Assembly (NCBI GenBank): GCA_002162795.1
Contig: MAAY01000062.1
Coordinates: 1 to 64,000 of the forward strand
Length of the DNA stretch: 64,000 nucleotides
Reading direction: 5' to 3'
Origin: Rhodobacterales bacterium 56_14_T64
GTDB taxonomy: Bacteria > Pseudomonadota > Alphaproteobacteria > Rhodobacterales > Rhodobacteraceae
Positions within the stretch are counted from its first letter, which is position 1. Every line of letters starts with the position of its first letter. This document shows, in pieces, positions 14,226 through 26,942 of the stretch. The notes under the pieces were generated by a model. That model was not told the origin of the DNA and did not search any database. It saw only the letters and a program-made list of their open reading frames with translations. The position numbers and the translations under genes are program-made.

Positions 14226-14483
14226 TCAGGCACGCCGTGAAGAATGAACCAGTCCGTCAACGCGTCGATGACTTCGGTCGAATCCAGCTTCCGATTCACC
14301 CGGATCGTCCCGCTGCCCGGCAGGTGATTGCGAAGCAATCGATGAGAGGGGGCACTCCCGGCTGTGTTCGTCCAAAAAGTTCAATGACCTGAACGCCCTT
14401 CCATCATAGGTTCGGTGGTGCATCGAGCCATTGAGAGCGTCATTGGTTCGAGCGACAATGGCGAGGGTCGTGCGACCAAACAT
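14226..14483 (-). pseudogene. IS3-family orfB fragment (integrase core)
   Basis: Two frames on the minus strand read 'HHRTYDGRAFRSLNFLDEHSREC' and, after the hairpin element at 14311-14350, 'TIRVNRKLDSTEVIDALTDWFILHGVPEYIRSE'. Together they are the middle of an IS3-type rve integrase core. Removing the hairpin joins them in frame. Both ends of the gene are missing. A further ~270 bp to the left (13952-14225) shows no recognisable gene. Confidence 0.75.
14311..14350 (-). repeat. Transposase-nested hairpin element, copy J (40 bp)
   Basis: Read on the minus strand it begins CCCTCTCA, has the stem GATTGC-TTC-GCAATC and ends CCTGCCGGGCAGCG. Removal joins GAG TGC CGG ACG ATC CGG in the transposase frame (E-C-R-T-I-R). 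Confidence 0.85.
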
Positions 14484-19493: not shown

Positions 19494-19533
19494 CATTGCC
19501 CAGCAGGGTATTGCGTAGCAATGCACGAGAGGG
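19494..19533 (-). repeat. Transposase-nested hairpin element, copy A (40 bp)
   Basis: Minus-strand reading starts CCCTCTCG, has stem ATTGC-TAC-GCAAT, ends CCTGCTGGGCAATG. Its removal joins TTT ATT | GAA AAG CAT CAC in the orfB frame (F-I-E-K-H-H). Confidence 0.85.
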
Positions 19534-19980
19534 GAAAAGCATCACCAGCTGTTTTCGGCGCGCGGGATGTGCCGTTGTTTTCGCCTGCATCCCAGCGGTT
19601 TCTATGCATGGGTTAAAGTCCAGTAAGCCGAGGTGCGCAGGAGGATGCACGCCAGACAAAGCAACTCAGAGAGGCTTGGAAAGAAAGCGGCACTATATAC
19701 GGTTACCGCAATATGCAGGATGATCTCTTCGATCTGAGTGAGACGTGTTGCCCAAATCGCGTGGCTCGGTTGGCAAGATTAGCAGTCATACATGCCCAAA
19801 TCGGCTACCCATAATAAAACGCGCGAAGGGTTTGCGTATTTGGCAGTTGTAATCGACCTCTTTTCTCGCCGCGTGGTCGGTTGGTCGATGCAGAATAGGC
19901 AGCCAACAGATTTGGTTCTACAGGCATTACTCATAGCTGTTTGGAGGCGTAAGCCAACGAGCAAAGTATTGGTTCATTCC

Positions 19981-20020
19981 CCCTCTCGTGATTTGCTGTG
20001 CAATACCCTGCCGGGCAGCG
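19981..20020 (+). repeat. Transposase-nested hairpin element, copy B (40 bp)
   Basis: CCCTCTCG, stem TTTGC-TGT-GCAA(T)A, then CCTGCCGGGCAGCG. It splits the motif holding the second catalytic Asp of the DDE triad: removal gives CAT TCC | GAT CAA (H-S-D-Q of HSDQGSQF). Confidence 0.88.
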
Positions 20021-20149
20021 GATCAAGTTTCCAGTTCACCAGCATTGAATGGGCGTTCGGGCAGTCACTCTAACCGATGGAGTGCCAACCCTCACTTTCT
20101 CAAGCAGCACAATCTTGAACGCAATATAAGTAGACGCGGCAATTGTCAT

Positions 20150-20183
20150 CCTTCTCGGGCATGAAATGCCCTGTCAGGCAACG
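20150..20183 (+). repeat. Transposase-nested hairpin element, copy C (34 bp)
   Basis: CCTTCTCG, perfect stem GGGCAT-GAA-ATGCCC, end CTGTCAGGCAACG. It is the shortest copy apart from I. Removal gives TGT CAT | GAT AAC (C-H-D-N of the conserved NCHDNAVAES motif). Confidence 0.85.
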
Positions 20184-20222
20184 GATAACGCTGTCGCGGA
20201 AAGCGTATTCAACCTTCTGAAC

Positions 20223-20349
20223 TCACTTGTTCATCGTTGAAATTACAACCCCCAAATCTGATGTAACCTCTGGTCTTGTCAGGCCACTGCTGGTTGCGAT
20301 GCGCACCGCATCACGGCGAAACTCGTCTGTATATCTGATTGATTGCCAT
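20223..20349 (-). pseudogene. IS3-family orfA fragment
   Basis: Minus strand from ATG 20349: 'MAINQ', then after a one-base shift 'YTDEFRRDAVRIATSSGLTRPEVTSDLGVVISTMNK' to a stop at 20223. This is the HTH part of an IS3-group orfA different from that at 19165. A ribosome binding site (GGAGACAGG) precedes it. The region 20350-20527 has no further recognisable gene. Confidence 0.75.
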
Positions 20350-20527
20350 TTCCTGTCTCCTTCATGGCAATTATTGCTCTAAAGAAACCGGAACTAAACC
20401 GGGGCACGACCAAAGTCGAAATCTTGTCGAAATGGCCAAGCCGGCCCGTTGGTCAGACGTTCCTTAAGTAAGGGCGGACAGGTGCCATTCACTGCAGTTG
20501 CAACAATGTCGGCTTTGGGGGGTGGTT

Positions 20528-20982
20528 TCAACGGGTCGACGCAACACTTGCATTGAAACGCTCGGCTGGTGTCTCATATTCTAGCGTTTTTCGAGGTCGT
20601 TCGTTGAGTAGCCTTGCGACGGCACTCAGCTTCGCTTGACTATGTATCGACAATTCTGTGCCCCTTGGGTAGCACTGTCGCAGCAAACGGTTGGTTTCAA
20701 GGATCTAGCAGTTGATCGCACAGATAGTTGCGCAGTCAGGCCTGGTGATATCTCCTCGCGTTCAGCCAAACTCAGAGCCAAACGGGACCTCATGCGATCT
20801 AGCGGACGGATACCACCGGTGCGCACTGGCAGCGGATAAATTGAGGATGATGCGCGATCAAAACCACGTCCAGTCGAACTCATCGACTCTCCGCGTTGCC
20901 AACGATCCCAGATCTCTGATTTCTGTTTATCTGTAAAAAATGTCTGCGGTGATAGGCCATGATTTACACTCCATCTTTCCAT
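20528..20982 (-). pseudogene. IS30-family transposase with large internal deletion
   Basis: The N-terminus is well kept ('GLSPQTFFTDKQKSEIWDRWQRGESM', '[30 protein letters not shown]'), as is the C-terminal tail on the same strand ('[33 protein letters not shown]', stop at 20528-20530). The DDE catalytic core between them is missing and frames do not match. The remaining ~455 bp compare with roughly 1 kb for an intact gene. Confidence 0.8.
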
Positions 20983-20987
20983 AAAGA

Positions 20988-21449
20988 CTAAAGTGTTGCG
21001 CCGACCCGTTGAAATCGCCGCTGGAAACTACCGTCAGAGGGGTTAGGCACGAAGGGCCACTTAGGATCGTTCATGCGGATGCTGAACGTGGAAAATGCCA
21101 GAAACTGCATTCGGTGAGAGATGCGCGGGCGAGCATTGGCCTTGTCATAGCCCACTGGTGCAGCGACGCTGGACCGGGTTCTGGGGGGCTGCGATATAGA
21201 TTTCGGTGCCGCTGAAGGACTTGATAAAGCGCAGGGTGTCGTTCGAGGCTCAGGACCTCGACGTAGGGTGACTTTGGTGGTTGGTTTTGGATGTGTCAGC
21301 TCAGAAATGGTCATGATGGTCCCCTTTGAATGGTTCAGAGGCAAAGGCATCACGGTGGAGAGGAGGCAGTCGCGCATGTCCTTTCCACTGTCATCGGACC
21401 AGTGCCGGGCTGTCGGGGAGATAAAGGCCGTTTGTGCGGTGTTACTCAT
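20988..21449 (-). other. Unrecognised open frame, possibly prophage debris
   Basis: A 153-codon minus-strand frame starts 'MSNTAQTAFISPTARHWSDDSGKDMRDCLLSTVMPLPLNH'. The first ~65 codons look protein-like and the frame downstream of about 21260 seems shifted ('LRFIKSFSGTEIYIAAPQNP' in another frame). I recognise no family. Its closeness to the Mu-like gene fragment downstream suggests common phage origin, but that is inference. Confidence 0.3.
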
Positions 21450-21559
21450 GCGGCCAAATATTTAACCGGGCAAAAATGCAGACACCCTACAACTAGTTGT
21501 GGTTGCAGCGGTTCATGAGGGCCTGCCCAGATCGGTGGGGATTTGCGCGCCAGTCAATT

Positions 21560-22043
21560 TCGGCGGGTGGCAGCCTCTTCCAACCAGTCTACCAATTCGG
21601 CGACGATGTTGTCCTGGGCTTCATCCGATTGGCCGATGAATGGGCGGGCAGGGATGGTGCCCCAGGGGATTGAAGCGCCGGTTGAAGCCTTGCCAAAAAT
21701 TTCCATACCCGCGCCGAACTGCATCACGGCGGCCTGAATGACGTTTGAACCGTATTCAACGTTGCCTTGGGCGGCCTCATAAAAAGCGTGTCGCGCATAT
21801 CTCCCGAGACGGTCAGCGGTGCGCCAAAGGTCAGCCCCAGTTTGGTATAGCGGTCCAGGGTGGATTGCTTGCGCGGAGCAAAACGCGTGCCGTCGGGTTG
21901 CGCGCCGTCACGCATGCGGTCCTGGGCCGAGACCAGCAGTAACTCGCAATGGCCTCCATCACCGGGGTCATACCGGCCACAGCCGCAGCAACCGCAATCA
22001 GGGCAGGGTCCAGAGTGTCAGTATTGGATTCGGTTCTGGCCAT
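21560..22043 (-). pseudogene. Mu-like phage virion morphogenesis protein (gpG-type), frameshifted
   Basis: Three minus-strand frame segments join into one protein: 'MARTESNTDTLDPALIAVAAAVAGMTPVMEAIASY', then 'DRMRDGAQPDGTRFAPRKQSTLDRYTKLGLTFGAPLTVSGDMRDTLF', then 'AAVMQFGAGMEIFGKASTGASIPWGTIPARPFIGQSDEAQDNI'. The 'PWG-IPARPF-G-S' end is typical of the virion morphogenesis family found in Mu-like phages. Two frameshifts separate the segments, so it is a relic; no other clear phage structural gene remains nearby. Confidence 0.7.
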
Positions 22044-22257
22044 GGCGAATTCTACCTTCGCTGTTGATGTTGGCCTTAGGTAGCCAAGCTCTTTGGTTTA
22101 AGCCGTCAGCACATATTATTTGTAACCGATACGAATTACACAGCAATTGAGTAACGAGGGTGTGGATTGCTGATGGGGTGGATGGCTCCTGCTCCAATCG
22201 ACGTCGCAATGGGTCATACGGCAGATGTCACAAACTGCAAATGAGAGGAGCTAGCCC

Positions 22258-23196
22258 ATGAACGTTCCAACAATAGGCGTTGGTCTGGCTAAGAACATTT
22301 TTCAGGTTCACGGGATCACTGGAAATGATGAGGTCGTCAGCAACAAGCCTTTGAGACGCGCACAGTTGTTACCGTTCTTCGCCCAGCGTGTGCCTTGTCT
22401 GATCGGCATGGAGGCATGTAGCGGCGCACATCATTGGGCTCAGGAACTAACTACGTTGGGCTATGATGTCCGTCTGATCCCACCGATGTATGTCAGAGCA
22501 CATGTCAAACGCGGGAAGTCTGCTGCCATCGATGCCAAGGCCATTTGTGAGGCTGTGACGCGTCCGACGATGCAGTTTGTTGCGGTGAAGACGGTTGAAC
22601 ATCAAGCTCTACTGTTGATTCATCGCGCCCGGGCTCTGCTTGTCCGGCAACGTACATCGCGCGGGGCCTCGCGCGTGTCATCGGATTTGCAGAGGACATT
22701 TTGGCCGGCAAAGTGCTGAAACTACCCGAGATTGCCAATGAGTTGATCCATAATCTTTGTGAACATCACATGGCTTTGTATGCACGGGTCCGTTGGTATG
22801 AAAACCGGCCGAAGCTGGTCGCCAATGAAGATGCGCGGGTCCGTTTGTTGCGCAGTGGCCGCGATTTTGCAGCATGGCTTGGTCTGACACCTGCGAACAA
22901 GTCCAGCGGCGGCAAAGAGAAACTGGGACGCATTACAACCCCTCTCGGGACATCGCTTGCGATGCCTTGCCGGGCAGTGAATGGGTGATCAATACCTAAG
23001 ATCATTGCTCGCCGTTGGCATGACGTCGCTTGTTCGCCAGACCCGAGCGCACCCGGAACGCGCAAGCAAATGGCTAACATCGTTGCTGGACCGTAAACCG
23101 GCCCGTATCGCGACCGTCGCCATGGCGAACAAGACTGCAAGGATTATTTGGGCCGTTTTGATCCGCAACGAACCATATACGCCTCGCGCTGCCTAA
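22258..23196 (+). pseudogene. IS110-family transposase, multiply broken
   Basis: The N-terminal RuvC-like part ('MNVPTIGVGLAKNIFQVHG', 'RGKSAAIDAKAICEAVTRPTMQFV') is IS110-type, but the first acidic residue of the DEDD set appears changed (GVGLAK for GIDLAK). A later frame gives 'RGLARVIGFAEDILAGKVLKLPEI', then a deletion removes the 'PGVGPITA' segment before 'GRDFAAWLGLTPANKSSGGKEKLGRIT'. A hairpin element (22940-22979) precedes the intact C-terminus ('MGDQYLRSLLAVGMTSLVRQ' to the stop at 23196). Confidence 0.85.
22940..22979 (+). repeat. Transposase-nested hairpin element, copy D (40 bp)
   Basis: CCCTCTCG, stem GGGACATCGC-TT-GCGATGCC (A bulge), end TTGCCGGGCAGTG. Removal gives ATT ACA ACA ATG GGT GAT (I-T-T-M-G-D), restoring the IS110 frame. 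This shows the element is not confined to IS3 hosts. Confidence 0.88.
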
Positions 23197-23730
23197 AGGA
23201 GAAAGAACAACGAGCTAGCAAGACCCGCGAGATGATGGTGCATAAGTCTGCCGCTAGAACCAAGGCACCCCGCCGAATGGCTTGGGCGCTGCAGCCCGCA
23301 AAGCTGATAGGGACTTGGTTTGCGGACCCCTTCAGGGCCAGCGGTCAAAATCGCGCAAACAGGCCGGACACATGACTACGTCTGAGCCGGACACATGACT
23401 GCGTCTGACAAGTGCACAAATCAGATCAAATATATCTTGCTATGCAGGAGCCATCCACACAAGCAGCAGTCGCTGCGATGATCACAAATGGCCAGGCTGC
23501 GGACAATGCCCCTGCTTAATGTCATTGGGACTACAGGAGCGAAGGCTCCTAACCGGCCAATCGTGCCACACCCGTCTAACGGCAGACTTCAGCCTAAATC
23601 AGACCATTTTTACAGTGTATCCATCGTCACAGTGCAGCTTTCGCAATGCGACCCTCAGGAACATTGCAGCACTTTTAGGTCCTACCGTTCGCAATGATGC
23701 ATTCTTCATTTTAAGGTTTGGGAGGCTATG
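23197..23730. other. No gene recognised
   Basis: Between the IS110 remnant and the rsmJ-like gene I find short open frames only, none with family features. The stretch contains one 23-bp tandem repeat (23363-23408). Confidence 0.5.
23363..23408. repeat. 23-bp tandem duplication
   Basis: Two adjacent 23-bp units beginning GCCGGACACATGACT differ at a single position (A/G). The unit contains GCCGGACAC; it may be a duplicated IS end, since similar GGACA starts occur in IS3-type terminal repeats. Confidence 0.8.
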
Positions 23731-23764
23731 ACATGCGGAGAAAGACAGATACAATCCGAGGGAT

Positions 23765-24409
23765 GTGGGGTTGGAATATTATGCAGGTAATGGCGATGAA
23801 CGGAGTATGACGCAGATTGATGGGGAGTTGCGGGTTGATTTTGTCAGCGGTTCTGTTGCGCATCGACTCCGGTTTGGAGGGGGGCGCGGGCAAGCTCTGG
23901 CAAAAGCGATGGGCTTGCGAGCGGGTAAAACACCAGTGATTATTGATGCGACGGCTGGCTTAGGCCGCGACTCATTTTTATTGGCGTCGCTGGGAGCGCA
24001 GGTCACAATGATCGAGCGGTCGGAGAGAATTCATTCTTTGTTGGTTCAAGGCATGGATCGAGCAGCTAAAGAGGGAGGCGAATTCGCCGAGATCATTAGC
24101 CGCATGACACTCCTTAAAGGAGATGCCAAGGATTTGCTGCCTGAGCTGTCTGGCGAAGCAATTTTGATTGATCCAATGCATCCTCCACGTAAAAACTCGG
24201 CGCTGGTGAAGCGCGAGTTACGTCAAGTTCGCGAGATCGTTGGAACGGATGATGACGCTGTAGAATTGGTGCGCGTGGCGCTCAAATATGCGCGCACTCG
24301 AGTGGTTCTAAAGTGGCCATCAAAGGCTGATCCGATCAAAGGAATACAGGCGAGATCCCATCAAATACGGGGAAAAACAACGAGTTACGATGTTTTTATG
24401 GTCGGGTGA
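23765..24409 (+). CDS. RsmJ-like 16S rRNA methyltransferase, short N-terminus
   Basis: A 214-residue class I methyltransferase. 'FVSGSVAHRLRFGGGRGQALAKAMG' followed by the SAM motif 'IIDATAGLGRDSFLLASLGAQVTMIER', 'LIDPMHPPRKNSALVKRELRQVREIVG' and 'RVVLKWPSKADPI' match RsmJ (YhiQ), which methylates the guanine at E. coli position 1516 of 16S rRNA. E. coli RsmJ has about 35 more N-terminal residues, so the gene may be truncated at its 5' end. The GTG at 23765 or the ATG at 23807 are possible starts. It sits alone between IS remnants and its A+T content seems higher than the neighbouring core genes. This family is best known from gammaproteobacteria, so transfer is possible. Confidence 0.7.
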   Translation: MGLEYYAGNGDERSMTQIDGELRVDFVSGSVAHRLRFGGGRGQALAKAMGLRAGKTPVIIDATAGLGRDSFLLASLGAQVTMIERSERIHSLLVQGMDRAAKEGGEFAEIISRMTLLKGDAKDLLPELSGEAILIDPMHPPRKNSALVKRELRQVREIVGTDDDAVELVRVALKYARTRVVLKWPSKADPIKGIQARSHQIRGKTTSYDVFMVG

Positions 24410-24466
24410 GGCTTTGTTGCACAAATCGACCTGATGTTGGACTTCCCTTTCCCGGACGGACTTAGC

Positions 24467-24690
24467 CTAAGGCAAAACAGTTTCTGGTATGCCAAGAGCT
24501 GTGAAGCCATCGCGGACCGCGGCACGGATTTGGATCTCCGTAACCTGCCGATTGAAGTCTCGCGCAGAGAGACGCTGACCGAGCAGTCTTACAAATACAT
24601 CCACTGACCGGCAGGGCATCGCAGCGCGATGTCCCGAGAGGGGATCAGAAGGTGCAATGGCCCAGATGAACCCCTGTATGGAATGGCAAC
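24467..24690 (-). pseudogene. Transposase C-terminus, IS5-like
   Basis: Minus strand reads 'DVFVRLLGQRLSARDFNRQVTEIQIRAAVRDGFTALGIPETVLP' to a TAG at 24467-24469. This resembles the tail of IS5-family transposases (R-F/D-x-x-Q-V-x-E-x-x-x-R-x-x-V-x-x-x-F-T-A-L-G-x-P). The upstream part continues after removal of the hairpin element as 'PLHLLI|DVFV', but beyond 24690 it is not recognisable. Family assignment is tentative. Confidence 0.5.
24602..24642 (-). repeat. Transposase-nested hairpin element, copy E (41 bp)
   Basis: Minus-strand reading: CCCTCTCG, stem GGGACATCGC-GCT-GCGATGCCC... compressed to GACATCGC/GCGATGCC, end CTGCCGGTCAGTG (one change in the constant palindrome). Flanks after removal read GATC|GATGTA. 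Confidence 0.8.
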
Positions 24691-24991
24691 CGACAAGGTC
24701 CTCTGAGCTACTCCCTAATAGTTGGACAGTATCTGGCGTGACTTAAGCTACTTTCTGCTCCTGCTGACCGGGTTTGGTTGTTTGTTACTCAGCCAATAGA
24801 CCACGGCTGGTGACTTGCCGCCAAGCGCGGAATGAGGGCGCTTACGATTATAGAACTCCATCCATTTTTTGACGCCAGCTTTCGCCTCTGATCCGGTTTC
24901 CCAGGCATGAAGGTAAACACACTCGTATTTCATCGAACGCCATAGACGCTCAATGAAGATATTGTCGAGAAAGCGGCCCTTGCCGTCCATT

Positions 24992-25028
24992 CACTGCCCG
25001 GCAGTGCATGTTTACATGCACGAGAGGG
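24992..25028 (-). repeat. Transposase-nested hairpin element, copy F (37 bp)
   Basis: Minus strand: CCCTCTCG, perfect 8-bp stem GTGCATGT-AA-ACATGCAC, end TGCCGGGCAGTG. Removal gives ATC TCA ATG GAC (I-S-M-D), the exact IS3 motif RISMDGKG. Confidence 0.9.
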
Positions 25029-25253
25029 GAGATGCGGATGTTTGACCGTCGCAGCCGGTCCGTCCAGACGAAGGATGTGAACTGGCTGCCCTGGTCTGTG
25101 TTCATGATCTCGGGAGGCCCAAAGCGGTGGATCGCCTCGTTCAGCACCTCGACACAGAACTCTGCCTCCAGCGTATTTGAGATGCGCCAGGCCAGCACCT
25201 TGCGGGTGTGCCAGTCCATAATCGCGACCAGGTACAGGAACCCACGTCGCATC

Positions 25254-25294
25254 CACTGCCCGGCAGGCGATTGCAAAGCAATCTGCCGAGAGGG
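25254..25294 (-). repeat. Transposase-nested hairpin element, copy G (41 bp)
   Basis: Minus strand: CCCTCTCG, stem GGC(A)GATTGC-TTT-GCAATCGCC, end TGCCGGGCAGTG. Removal gives CTA CCG ATG CGA (L-P-M-R), restoring DITYLPMRRGF. Confidence 0.9.
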
Positions 25295-25679
25295 GGTAGA
25301 TAAGTAATATCGGAACACCAGACCTGATTGGGACGGGTCACTCGAAGGTTACGCAGCAGGTAGGGGTAAACTTTGTGCCCCTTCGCCGCCTTGCTGGTAT
25401 TGGGCTTCTGGTAGATCGGCATCAGACCCATCAACCGCATGTGCCGCCGAACGCGCTTTTCGTTCACCAGGTGGCCTTCGTTGCGAAGATGCCAAGTCAT
25501 CTGGCGTACGCCATAAAAGGGTGTTTCCAGGAACTGTTCATCAATCTGACGTATCAGATCCAGGTTCAACTCGCTCTCGCCCTTGGCTTCATAGTAAAAT
25601 GATGACCGTGAGATCGACAAAAGCCTGCACTGCTTGCCGACGGAAAGGCTTGGGGTGGTTGGCTCAATCATGTTCCGCC

Positions 25680-25973
25680 TCACTTGCCGGTCCAAGGCTT
25701 GAGCTTTCTTACCAAAAAACCGTTGGCGACAGCCAGCTCCCCGATTTTGGCATGCAGTTCTTTAACCTGTTCTTCGTCAACGTTCGCCACCTTCCGGCCG
25801 CCGCGCTCAAACACCCCGGATGCCCCTTCCAGTAGAGCTTTCTTCCCCTGATGGATCATGGTGGGGGGAGTCCCGAACCGGCTCGCCAGTTCCGAAACAG
25901 TCTCCTCGCCCTTCAGTGCTTCCAATGCCACTTTGGCCTTAAAATCTGGATGATGTTGCTTTCGTTTCGACAT
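25680..25973 (-). CDS. IS3-family transposase orfA
   Basis: A 97-residue HTH protein ('HPDFKAKVALEALKGEETVSELASRFGTPPTMIHQGKKALLEGA') with a C-terminal leucine/valine heptad region ('EEQVKELHAKIGELAVANGFLVRKL'), the usual layout of IS3 orfA. It overlaps orfB by 16 bases; in IS3 elements the fusion transposase is made by programmed -1 frameshifting across such an overlap. No lesion is visible. Confidence 0.85.
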   Translation of the reverse strand: MSKRKQHHPDFKAKVALEALKGEETVSELASRFGTPPTMIHQGKKALLEGASGVFERGGRKVANVDEEQVKELHAKIGELAVANGFLVRKLKPWTGK

Positions 25974-26775: not shown

Positions 26776-26810
26776 CCCTCTCGGGGTGTAGACACCGCCT
26801 GCCGGCAACG
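26776..26810 (+). repeat. Transposase-nested hairpin element, copy I (35 bp)
   Basis: CCCTCTCG, stem GGTGT-AG-ACACC, end CCTGCCGGCAACG (the constant palindrome shortened by one G). It interrupts the orfB motif normally reading AGW-x-VN-x-K-x-V; exact frame restoration requires an end one base shorter than in other copies. Confidence 0.8.
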
Positions 26811-26901: not shown

Positions 26902-26942
26902 CTCTCTCGGGACATCGCCGTGCGATGCCCTGCCGGGCAGTG
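26902..26942 (+). repeat. Transposase-nested hairpin element, copy H (41 bp), at a deletion junction
   Basis: CTCTCTCG, stem GGGACATCGC-CGT-GCGATGCCC, end TGCCGGGCAGTG. The transposase reads 'GRFWLN' on the left and 'PWENGYCESFN' on the right, so about 130 codons of core are missing exactly at the element. Confidence 0.85.

Follow-up and report, generated by a model that had tools for sequence, protein, structure and literature searches.

To our knowledge, the movement of repetitive extragenic palindromes (REPs), rickettsial palindromic elements (RPEs) and similar palindromes is largely unexplained, partly because sites available in a clean state both before and after insertion are rare. Insertion sequences (ISs) of the IS200/IS605 type, which move as single strands by means of a Y1 enzyme, and their RAYT relatives produce no target duplication, have a tetranucleotide on one side and carry subterminal hairpins, and the mitochondrial byp elements and double-hairpin elements are hairpins of about 40 nt inserted in coding sequence. 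As for the palindromes themselves, GTAG- and CGTC-tagged REPs are described as palindromes of 20-40 bp present in many copies with an unpaired tag at one end, the CGTC type being mainly alpha-proteobacterial, devoid of a dedicated transposase and equated with RPE-4 and RPE-6 (Di Nocera, 2013; PMC3733652). The words Rhodobacter and Dinoroseobacter are absent from the main text of that article, and the accessible parts of the open-licence literature on palindromic or REP elements in Rhodobacteraceae, Roseobacter and Rhodobacterales held no description of the element presented here, which is weak evidence of absence since open-licence papers alone are concerned. The present analysis bears on a stretch of 64,000 nt from Rhodobacterales bacterium 56_14_T64 (assembly GCA_002162795.1, contig MAAY01000062.1, positions 1 to 64,000), hereafter the window, in which a short hairpin DNA recurs within decayed insertion sequences.

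This DNA is a non-autonomous, palindromic mini-element of 34-45 nt, which enters as a unit next to a C^GAYG motif already in place, duplicates no target bases and has an edge ragged by about one base. The unit consists of CCCTCTCG, a variable hairpin and CTGCCGGGCARYG, both ends being very conserved; as the strict pattern matches four times in the window against 0.01 expected from shuffles, the element is not a product of chance. From 482 nhmmer rows, 378 near full-length ones were kept, 344 of which were distinct by their flanks, and the uninterrupted relatives available for 161 of these 344 copies provided 118 independent sites at 78% identity or more. The net change between the empty and filled states was zero at 65 sites, while one base was lost at 32 and two to four were lost at 8; extra bases amounted to one at 8 sites and to two or more at 5 (-2 once, -3 three times and -12 once). 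Where the flanks are at least 95% identical (11 copies), the net change was zero in 7, one base was lost in 3 and three were extra (-3) in 1, namely the best-matched copy of all, L137_1184 (99.3%); L325_18908 (98.2%) and L063_4998 (95.5%), both with a net change of zero, are clean examples. No systematic target duplication was found at the 118 empty/filled sites, which bears out the original prediction that insertion adds the unit alone. The accompanying claims, that the junctions are exact and that exact removal restores the reading frame, hold at 55% of the sites, those with no net change, but at 27% a one-base deletion is left; about a third of the sites are off by a base, and changes at positions -1 and +1 are frequent.

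The motif on the right is part of the target, since C^GAYG is already present in the empty sites: among the 97 sites with a net change of 0 or 1, the empty state has C at -1 in 54, G at +1 in 64, A at +2 in 68, T or C at +3 in 89 and G at +4 in 63, the unit sitting to the left of this motif. As the net change by itself cannot tell which edge lost a base, the loss was assigned to the left edge on the grounds that the right motif is intact, that the lost base is C in 21 of the 32 one-base losses, that position -1 gains C without ever losing it (at net-zero sites, 14 of 32 bases other than C became C and 0 of 33 Cs changed) and that position -2 rarely differs (4 of 65 net-zero sites). The left edge is thus ragged by about one base, often with a C gained. 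Position +1 differs at 15 of the 65 net-zero sites, a T in this position (four empty sites) being never kept, and the remaining flank positions differ at 3 to 16 of the 65. The length of the open reading frame (ORF) after excision does not discriminate between exact and shifted excision in this GC-rich DNA (34 exact, 21 and 37 shifted, among 92); covariation between target and element (60 tests, smallest p = 3.7e-5) is without interpretable pattern.

Ten copies (A to J) lie within decayed ISs between 14.3 and 27 kb of the window. They were scored with a covariance model (CM) built from 13 copies; the nhmmer step and its filter missed copies C and H, and the empty-site comparison covers the other window copies. 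The copies and their hosts are as follows.

14311..14350, minus strand: copy J, in an IS3-type transposase remnant (E-C^R-T-I-R), found by CM and nhmmer; net change 0 against 5 of 5 uninterrupted homologues.
19494..19533, minus strand: copy A, antisense to an IS3-type host frame (frame set by eye); CM E=8.7e-13; no empty homologue found.
19981..20020, plus strand: copy B, V-H-S^D-Q motif; CM E=3.4e-13.
20150..20183, plus strand: copy C, which reads by sequence as the T3-A form of the CCC/GGG helix described below; CM E=3.8e-8.
22258..22719, plus strand: IS110-family transposase fragment, upstream ORF of the host of copy D; PF01548 E=1.5e-7.
22940..22979, plus strand: copy D, in the IS110-family transposase; found by CM; net change 0 against 2 of 2 homologues.
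24602..24642, minus strand: copy E; CM E=2.3e-13; no empty homologue found.
24950..25695, minus strand: pieces of an IS3-family transposase ORF, host of copies F and G; rve E=6.6e-16, HTH_21 E=3.2e-14.
24992..25028, minus strand: copy F, in the IS3 transposase (I-S^M-D); net change 0 against 2 of 2 homologues.
25254..25294, minus strand: copy G, in the same IS3 transposase as F (L-P^M-R); net change 0 against 1 of 1 homologue (90.7%).
26776..26810, plus strand: copy H, degenerate, in an IS3-type ORF; CM E=1.9e-6.
26902..26942, plus strand: copy I, which probably arose when two copies recombined.

Excision had been expected to rejoin sensible codons, a point to be checked by aligning each host with uninterrupted homologues. 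This alignment agrees with net-zero insertion and a kept frame in D, F, G and J, but the codon at the scar is altered in two of them: D has ...ACA ACA ATG where its empty homologue has ...ACA AAA ATG, and in J, bases -1 and +1 are both unlike those of the homologues. For copy B, a single homologue (84.5%) is gap-free at the junction, and none was retained in a stricter search. Copy I departs from clean insertion, its flanks being separated by 319 bp in L319 and L327, both uninterrupted, and by 401 bp in L033, where an element occupies both sites; this copy is probably the product of recombination between two copies, with loss of the intervening DNA. Similarly, L036:4828 joins the left flank of window copy B to the right flank of copy C, and the same kind of joining involves two L032 copies at L031:5747; at these two places and at window 26902-26942, neighbouring elements appear to have recombined with deletion of the DNA between them.

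As separate observations, different element variants occupy one IS5-type site in L068:8415, L325:18908 and L269:7072, which may reflect either a hot spot or in-place exchange, and a recurring GAGTATCCGTATTGG junction, which reads like the end of an IS110 inserted into elements, was found among solo left ends. This IS110-type end directly adjoins truncated elements at L115:4243, L116:4395, L135:5732, L040 (minus strand) and L044:5047, suggesting that this IS110-type IS uses the elements as target; some ISs are known to use REPs in this way.

The eight genomes of the genus (G000-G007, the window lying in C18 of G000) differ widely in element content. The CM gave 77 matches at E<=1 and 73 at E<=0.01 in G000, with at least one double count (C33:3374-3417, counted on both strands), and, at E<=0.01, 145 in G005, 130 in G007, 22 in G006, 13 in G003 and one each in G002 and G004; at this threshold, the CM search did not find the element in G001. 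The high counts are, in this respect, lower bounds, CM scoring having been applied to at most 150 candidates per genome. In the family, 63 of 149 genomes carry the element (E<=1e-4, stricter filters); over 40 genomes, the search for the element applied stricter filters, with 44 candidates scored per genome. A pattern scan of named genomes returned at least 119 matching stretches, and the names among the 80 matches listed are mostly those of what we take to be Rhodobacterales, with exceptions including a Gammaproteobacteria and a Brevibacterium metagenome-assembled genome. Two forms of the pattern matched 102 and 79 plasmid records, Rhodobacterales genera dominating with the exception of Shinella (2), and two phage records matched, each to part of the query only. 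The DNA relatives of the window are Rhodobacterales as well, and the Rfam search of the window at gathering thresholds matched no family.

By covariation, the fold of the element is a long stem in which compensatory changes occur, also in a CCC/GGG helix at its base, and which has one conserved bulge. Over all helices, 117 distinct aligned elements show 93.8% standard pairs and 112 doubly changed cells where shuffles give 22.6; the covariation score of 0.213 compares with 0.060 in shuffles (0 of 500 reaching 0.213) and at most 0.064 in slid versions; since this alignment was fitted to a model (R1) containing hairpin 1 and the CTG/CAG helix without CCC/GGG, the counts lean towards the first two. 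Pairing joins the CCC of the left end to the GGG close to the right end, with compensatory changes at all three pairs (Fisher p of 8e-11, 7e-4 and 4e-4 in 298 distinct elements, which are related to one another): A1 faces T in 8 of the 9 elements with A1, A2 faces T in 2 of 5 and T3 faces A in 3 of 4. The non-standard pairs of hairpin 1 are mostly A.C on the plus strand used in the original prediction, which corresponds to G.T or G.U on the other strand; with symmetric scoring, A.C outnumbers G.T on the plus strand by 79 to 22, and in a fixed alignment by 25 to 9 in hairpin 1 (p=0.009) and by 30 to 2 in CTG/CAG. RNA folding finds the minus strand more stable in 217 of the 298 elements and the plus strand in 78. 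On the strength of the wobble asymmetry and of RNA folding, the minus strand may, with moderate confidence, be regarded as the likelier working form; read in this direction, the element forms a stem interrupted by an internal loop, with a flush 3' end and an unpaired 5' end of 5 nt adjoining the target tag CRTY.

With regard to hosts, transposase homology directly adjoins 236 of the 321 non-redundant sites, the other 85 being unclassified (translated, without Pfam scan). Before host assignment, nine ORF families judged spurious by eye were set aside; L217 was one of them, so that its sites count among the 85, though in hindsight it looks like a real transposase. In our reading of the sequences, the hosts would include IS3, IS5, IS30, IS110, IS21, IS66 and IS6 types, and within the window Pfam matches bear out the IS3-type domains and IS110. 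Relative to the sense strand of the host as given by transposase homology, 150 elements are sense and 86 antisense (p=1.5e-4, the target motif predicting a fraction of 0.512), 22 of the best transposase matches having come from the query of the same site; at the 131 sites crossed by one match, 85 are sense and 46 antisense. An estimate from the longest ORF had given 43 sense sites of 53 (10 antisense), with 17, 11 and 15 in phases 0, 1 and 2, and was later softened to 150:86. In the Sulfitobacter sp. D7 plasmid p4SUD7 (L292:2501-2541), an element runs in frame through an annotated IS3 transposase, to which it would add some 14 residues by our own reading.

Two sets of repeated hosts are informative in this respect. 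In G005, five IS110 matches at 99-100% (L057, L060, L061, L066 and L067) each carry elements at the same two sites; excision of the one inside the gene leaves an open frame in the four readable copies of the five, and the genome search for an uninterrupted copy found none, the next match being partial and at 68%. In this set, 7 of the 23 variable positions (alignment 460-1548) fall inside the 41-nt element, including a compensatory stem change, which implies that elements change or are exchanged in place. In G082, an IS3-type IS (L386, L387 and L388) is present at three loci, with five elements, lying in both orientations, at two of them and three elements at the other, and the interrupted IS evidently spread in trans; mobilisation in trans therefore suffices.

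Set against the described systems, the element is closest in anatomy to the REP/RPE palindromes. Like tagged REPs, it is a short, high-copy palindrome supported by covariation, reaching 73, 145 and 130 matches in G000, G005 and G007; unlike REPs as far as they are described in the source cited above, it has its CRTY-like tag in the target, where it pre-exists in empty sites, rather than as part of the repeat, it mostly abuts transposase genes (236 of 321 sites, 85 unclassified) whereas REPs are mainly extragenic, and it has a closing CCC/GGG helix. RPE-4 and RPE-6 are likewise small palindromes inside open reading frames with, in the same source, no known mechanism, but they are described as lying in frame in cellular genes, whereas the hosts of the present element are mainly IS genes, entered in all three phases and in either orientation. 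It is accordingly grouped as a REP/RPE-like palindromic mini-element, although two defining REP features fail, namely the tag within the repeat and the extragenic location. With IS200/IS605 and RAYT it shares the absence of target duplication at the 118 sites, a tetranucleotide on one side and hairpins, but no Y1 gene linked to the element was found, the inspected Y1 loci have unrelated ends and the net change is non-zero at 53 of 118 sites, at odds with exact ends. With byp and double-hairpin elements it shares a hairpin insert of about 40 nt in coding sequence, but antisense copies and one-base losses are common here. A miniature inverted-repeat transposable element of a DDE transposase was rejected as there is no systematic target duplication and the ends were found to pair with each other through CCC/GGG only.

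Candidate mobilising enzymes were sought by domain. The Y1 domain PF01797 matches in four of the eight genus genomes, and in the family it is present in 12 of the 63 element-bearing genomes against 4 of the 86 others (p=0.007), a weak association; as to linkage, none of nine genus-level Y1 loci matched the element, and in one of eleven family loci (L371) an element lies 560 bp away, not at the Y1 border. The inspected Y1 loci look to us like ordinary IS200-type elements with unrelated ends, and Y1 was rejected as mobiliser, being uncorrelated with the element in the genus, weakly associated in the family and flanked by unlike ends. The reverse transcriptase domain RVT_1 matched G001 and, below the cut-off, G006 only, the search giving no match in G000, G002, G003, G004, G005 and G007; a retroelement and a reverse transcriptase as mobiliser were set aside since the unmatched six of the eight genus genomes include the high-copy G000, G005 and G007.

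How the element moves can be addressed only tentatively. The account we hold, short of conviction, to be the best available is that it moves in trans as a folded single strand, in a REP-like mode, through an HUH-like enzyme. On the minus strand, the target tag CRTY would stand 5' of the element; next to it would come a short unpaired CRYTG and, beyond this, the stem closed by CCC/GGG at the 3' end, an anatomy resembling that of REPs and of IS200/IS605 ends. A putative HUH-like enzyme, either missing from present-day genomes or unrecognised in them, would make its cuts after the tag and the G run, slipping of the G run on the C run would account for the ragged edge, and copies would spread further by riding on their host ISs. 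In favour of this account are the junctions of the empty and filled sites with their pre-existing motif, the covariation of the helices, the wobble asymmetry, the RNA folding and the weak Y1 association in the family. The original prediction had argued for a single-strand (HUH/Y1-like), recombinase or retro-type mechanism: the fold and the strand asymmetry do fit a single-strand substrate, but neither HUH/Y1 nor a retro-type mechanism is demonstrated, given that Y1 is unmatched in G005 and G003, that the Y1 ends are unrelated and that RVT_1 is unmatched in six genomes.

Several points weigh against this single-strand account. Y1 chemistry should give exact ends, and a third of the sites are off by a base with -1 and +1 often changed; the PF01797 search found no match in G005 (145 elements) or G003 (13) nor, in the family, in G074 (40) or G020 (28), and the borders of the eleven family Y1 loci inspected are unlike the element, several reading like IS200 elements. 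A longer autonomous form was sought among 118 solo left ends, of which 70 were inspected, and no autonomous partner was found. Regarding the strand, the CTG/CAG wobble count comes nearly all from one pair, the CCC/GGG wobble leans the opposite way (13 G.T and 7 A.C, p=0.26), and four window copies folded as DNA give weak values (z from -2.5 to -0.3), neither strand being consistently favoured. Finally, the sense bias of 150:86 has no explanation if the element moves as a single strand. It is conceivable, though doubtful, that these are a class of selfish hairpins of about 40 nt with a transposition machinery of their own, neither DDE, Y1 nor reverse transcriptase, specialised in parasitising ISs across Rhodobacterales.

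Among the other explanations, a double-strand recombinase or transposase of the tyrosine, serine or DEDD type, acting on the element ends with the hairpin serving only as a protein-binding palindrome, would agree with the lack of target duplication, the very conserved ends and the recombination of elements with each other in place; set against the ragged edge and the wobble asymmetry, it is unlikely. Less likely again is that the elements are passive repeats, i.e. old REP-like debris immobile alone and spread only with carrier ISs: in 34 of 317 site clusters, a single site has at least two copies, and many hosts are decayed IS genes, but the 118 independent empty/filled sites, some at 95-98% flank identity, indicate repeated insertion in the fairly recent past. 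A similarly low or slightly lower probability attaches to a retro-type origin, in which a small structured RNA would be copied into nicked targets, with priming on the side of the right edge and with the ragged, C-rich left edge as the untemplated end; this would accommodate the C gained at -1 (14 gains, 0 losses) and the target motif on the opposite side, but not the RVT_1 results, and priming at the right edge would make the better-folding strand the cDNA rather than the RNA. That the element is spliced out or bypassed is unlikely, and that it is intron-like, removed from mRNA or skipped by ribosomes so that interrupted transposases stay functional, is the least credible reading, for the sense bias (43 of 53, or 150 of 236 against 0.51 expected) and the uniformly interrupted IS110 of G005 are outweighed by the 86 antisense sites, the frame broken at the 32 of 118 sites one base short where sense-only insertion and exact restoration would be expected, the sufficiency of mobilisation in trans seen in G082 with up to five elements, and a fold moderately favouring the strand opposite to the sense mRNA.

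All in all, a hairpin DNA of about 40 letters has been inserted many times into the insertion sequences of marine Rhodobacterales, and the 118 mapped insertion sites describe its junctions, target and fold with almost single-base precision. What moves such palindromes thereby becomes a testable question in cultured marine bacteria.

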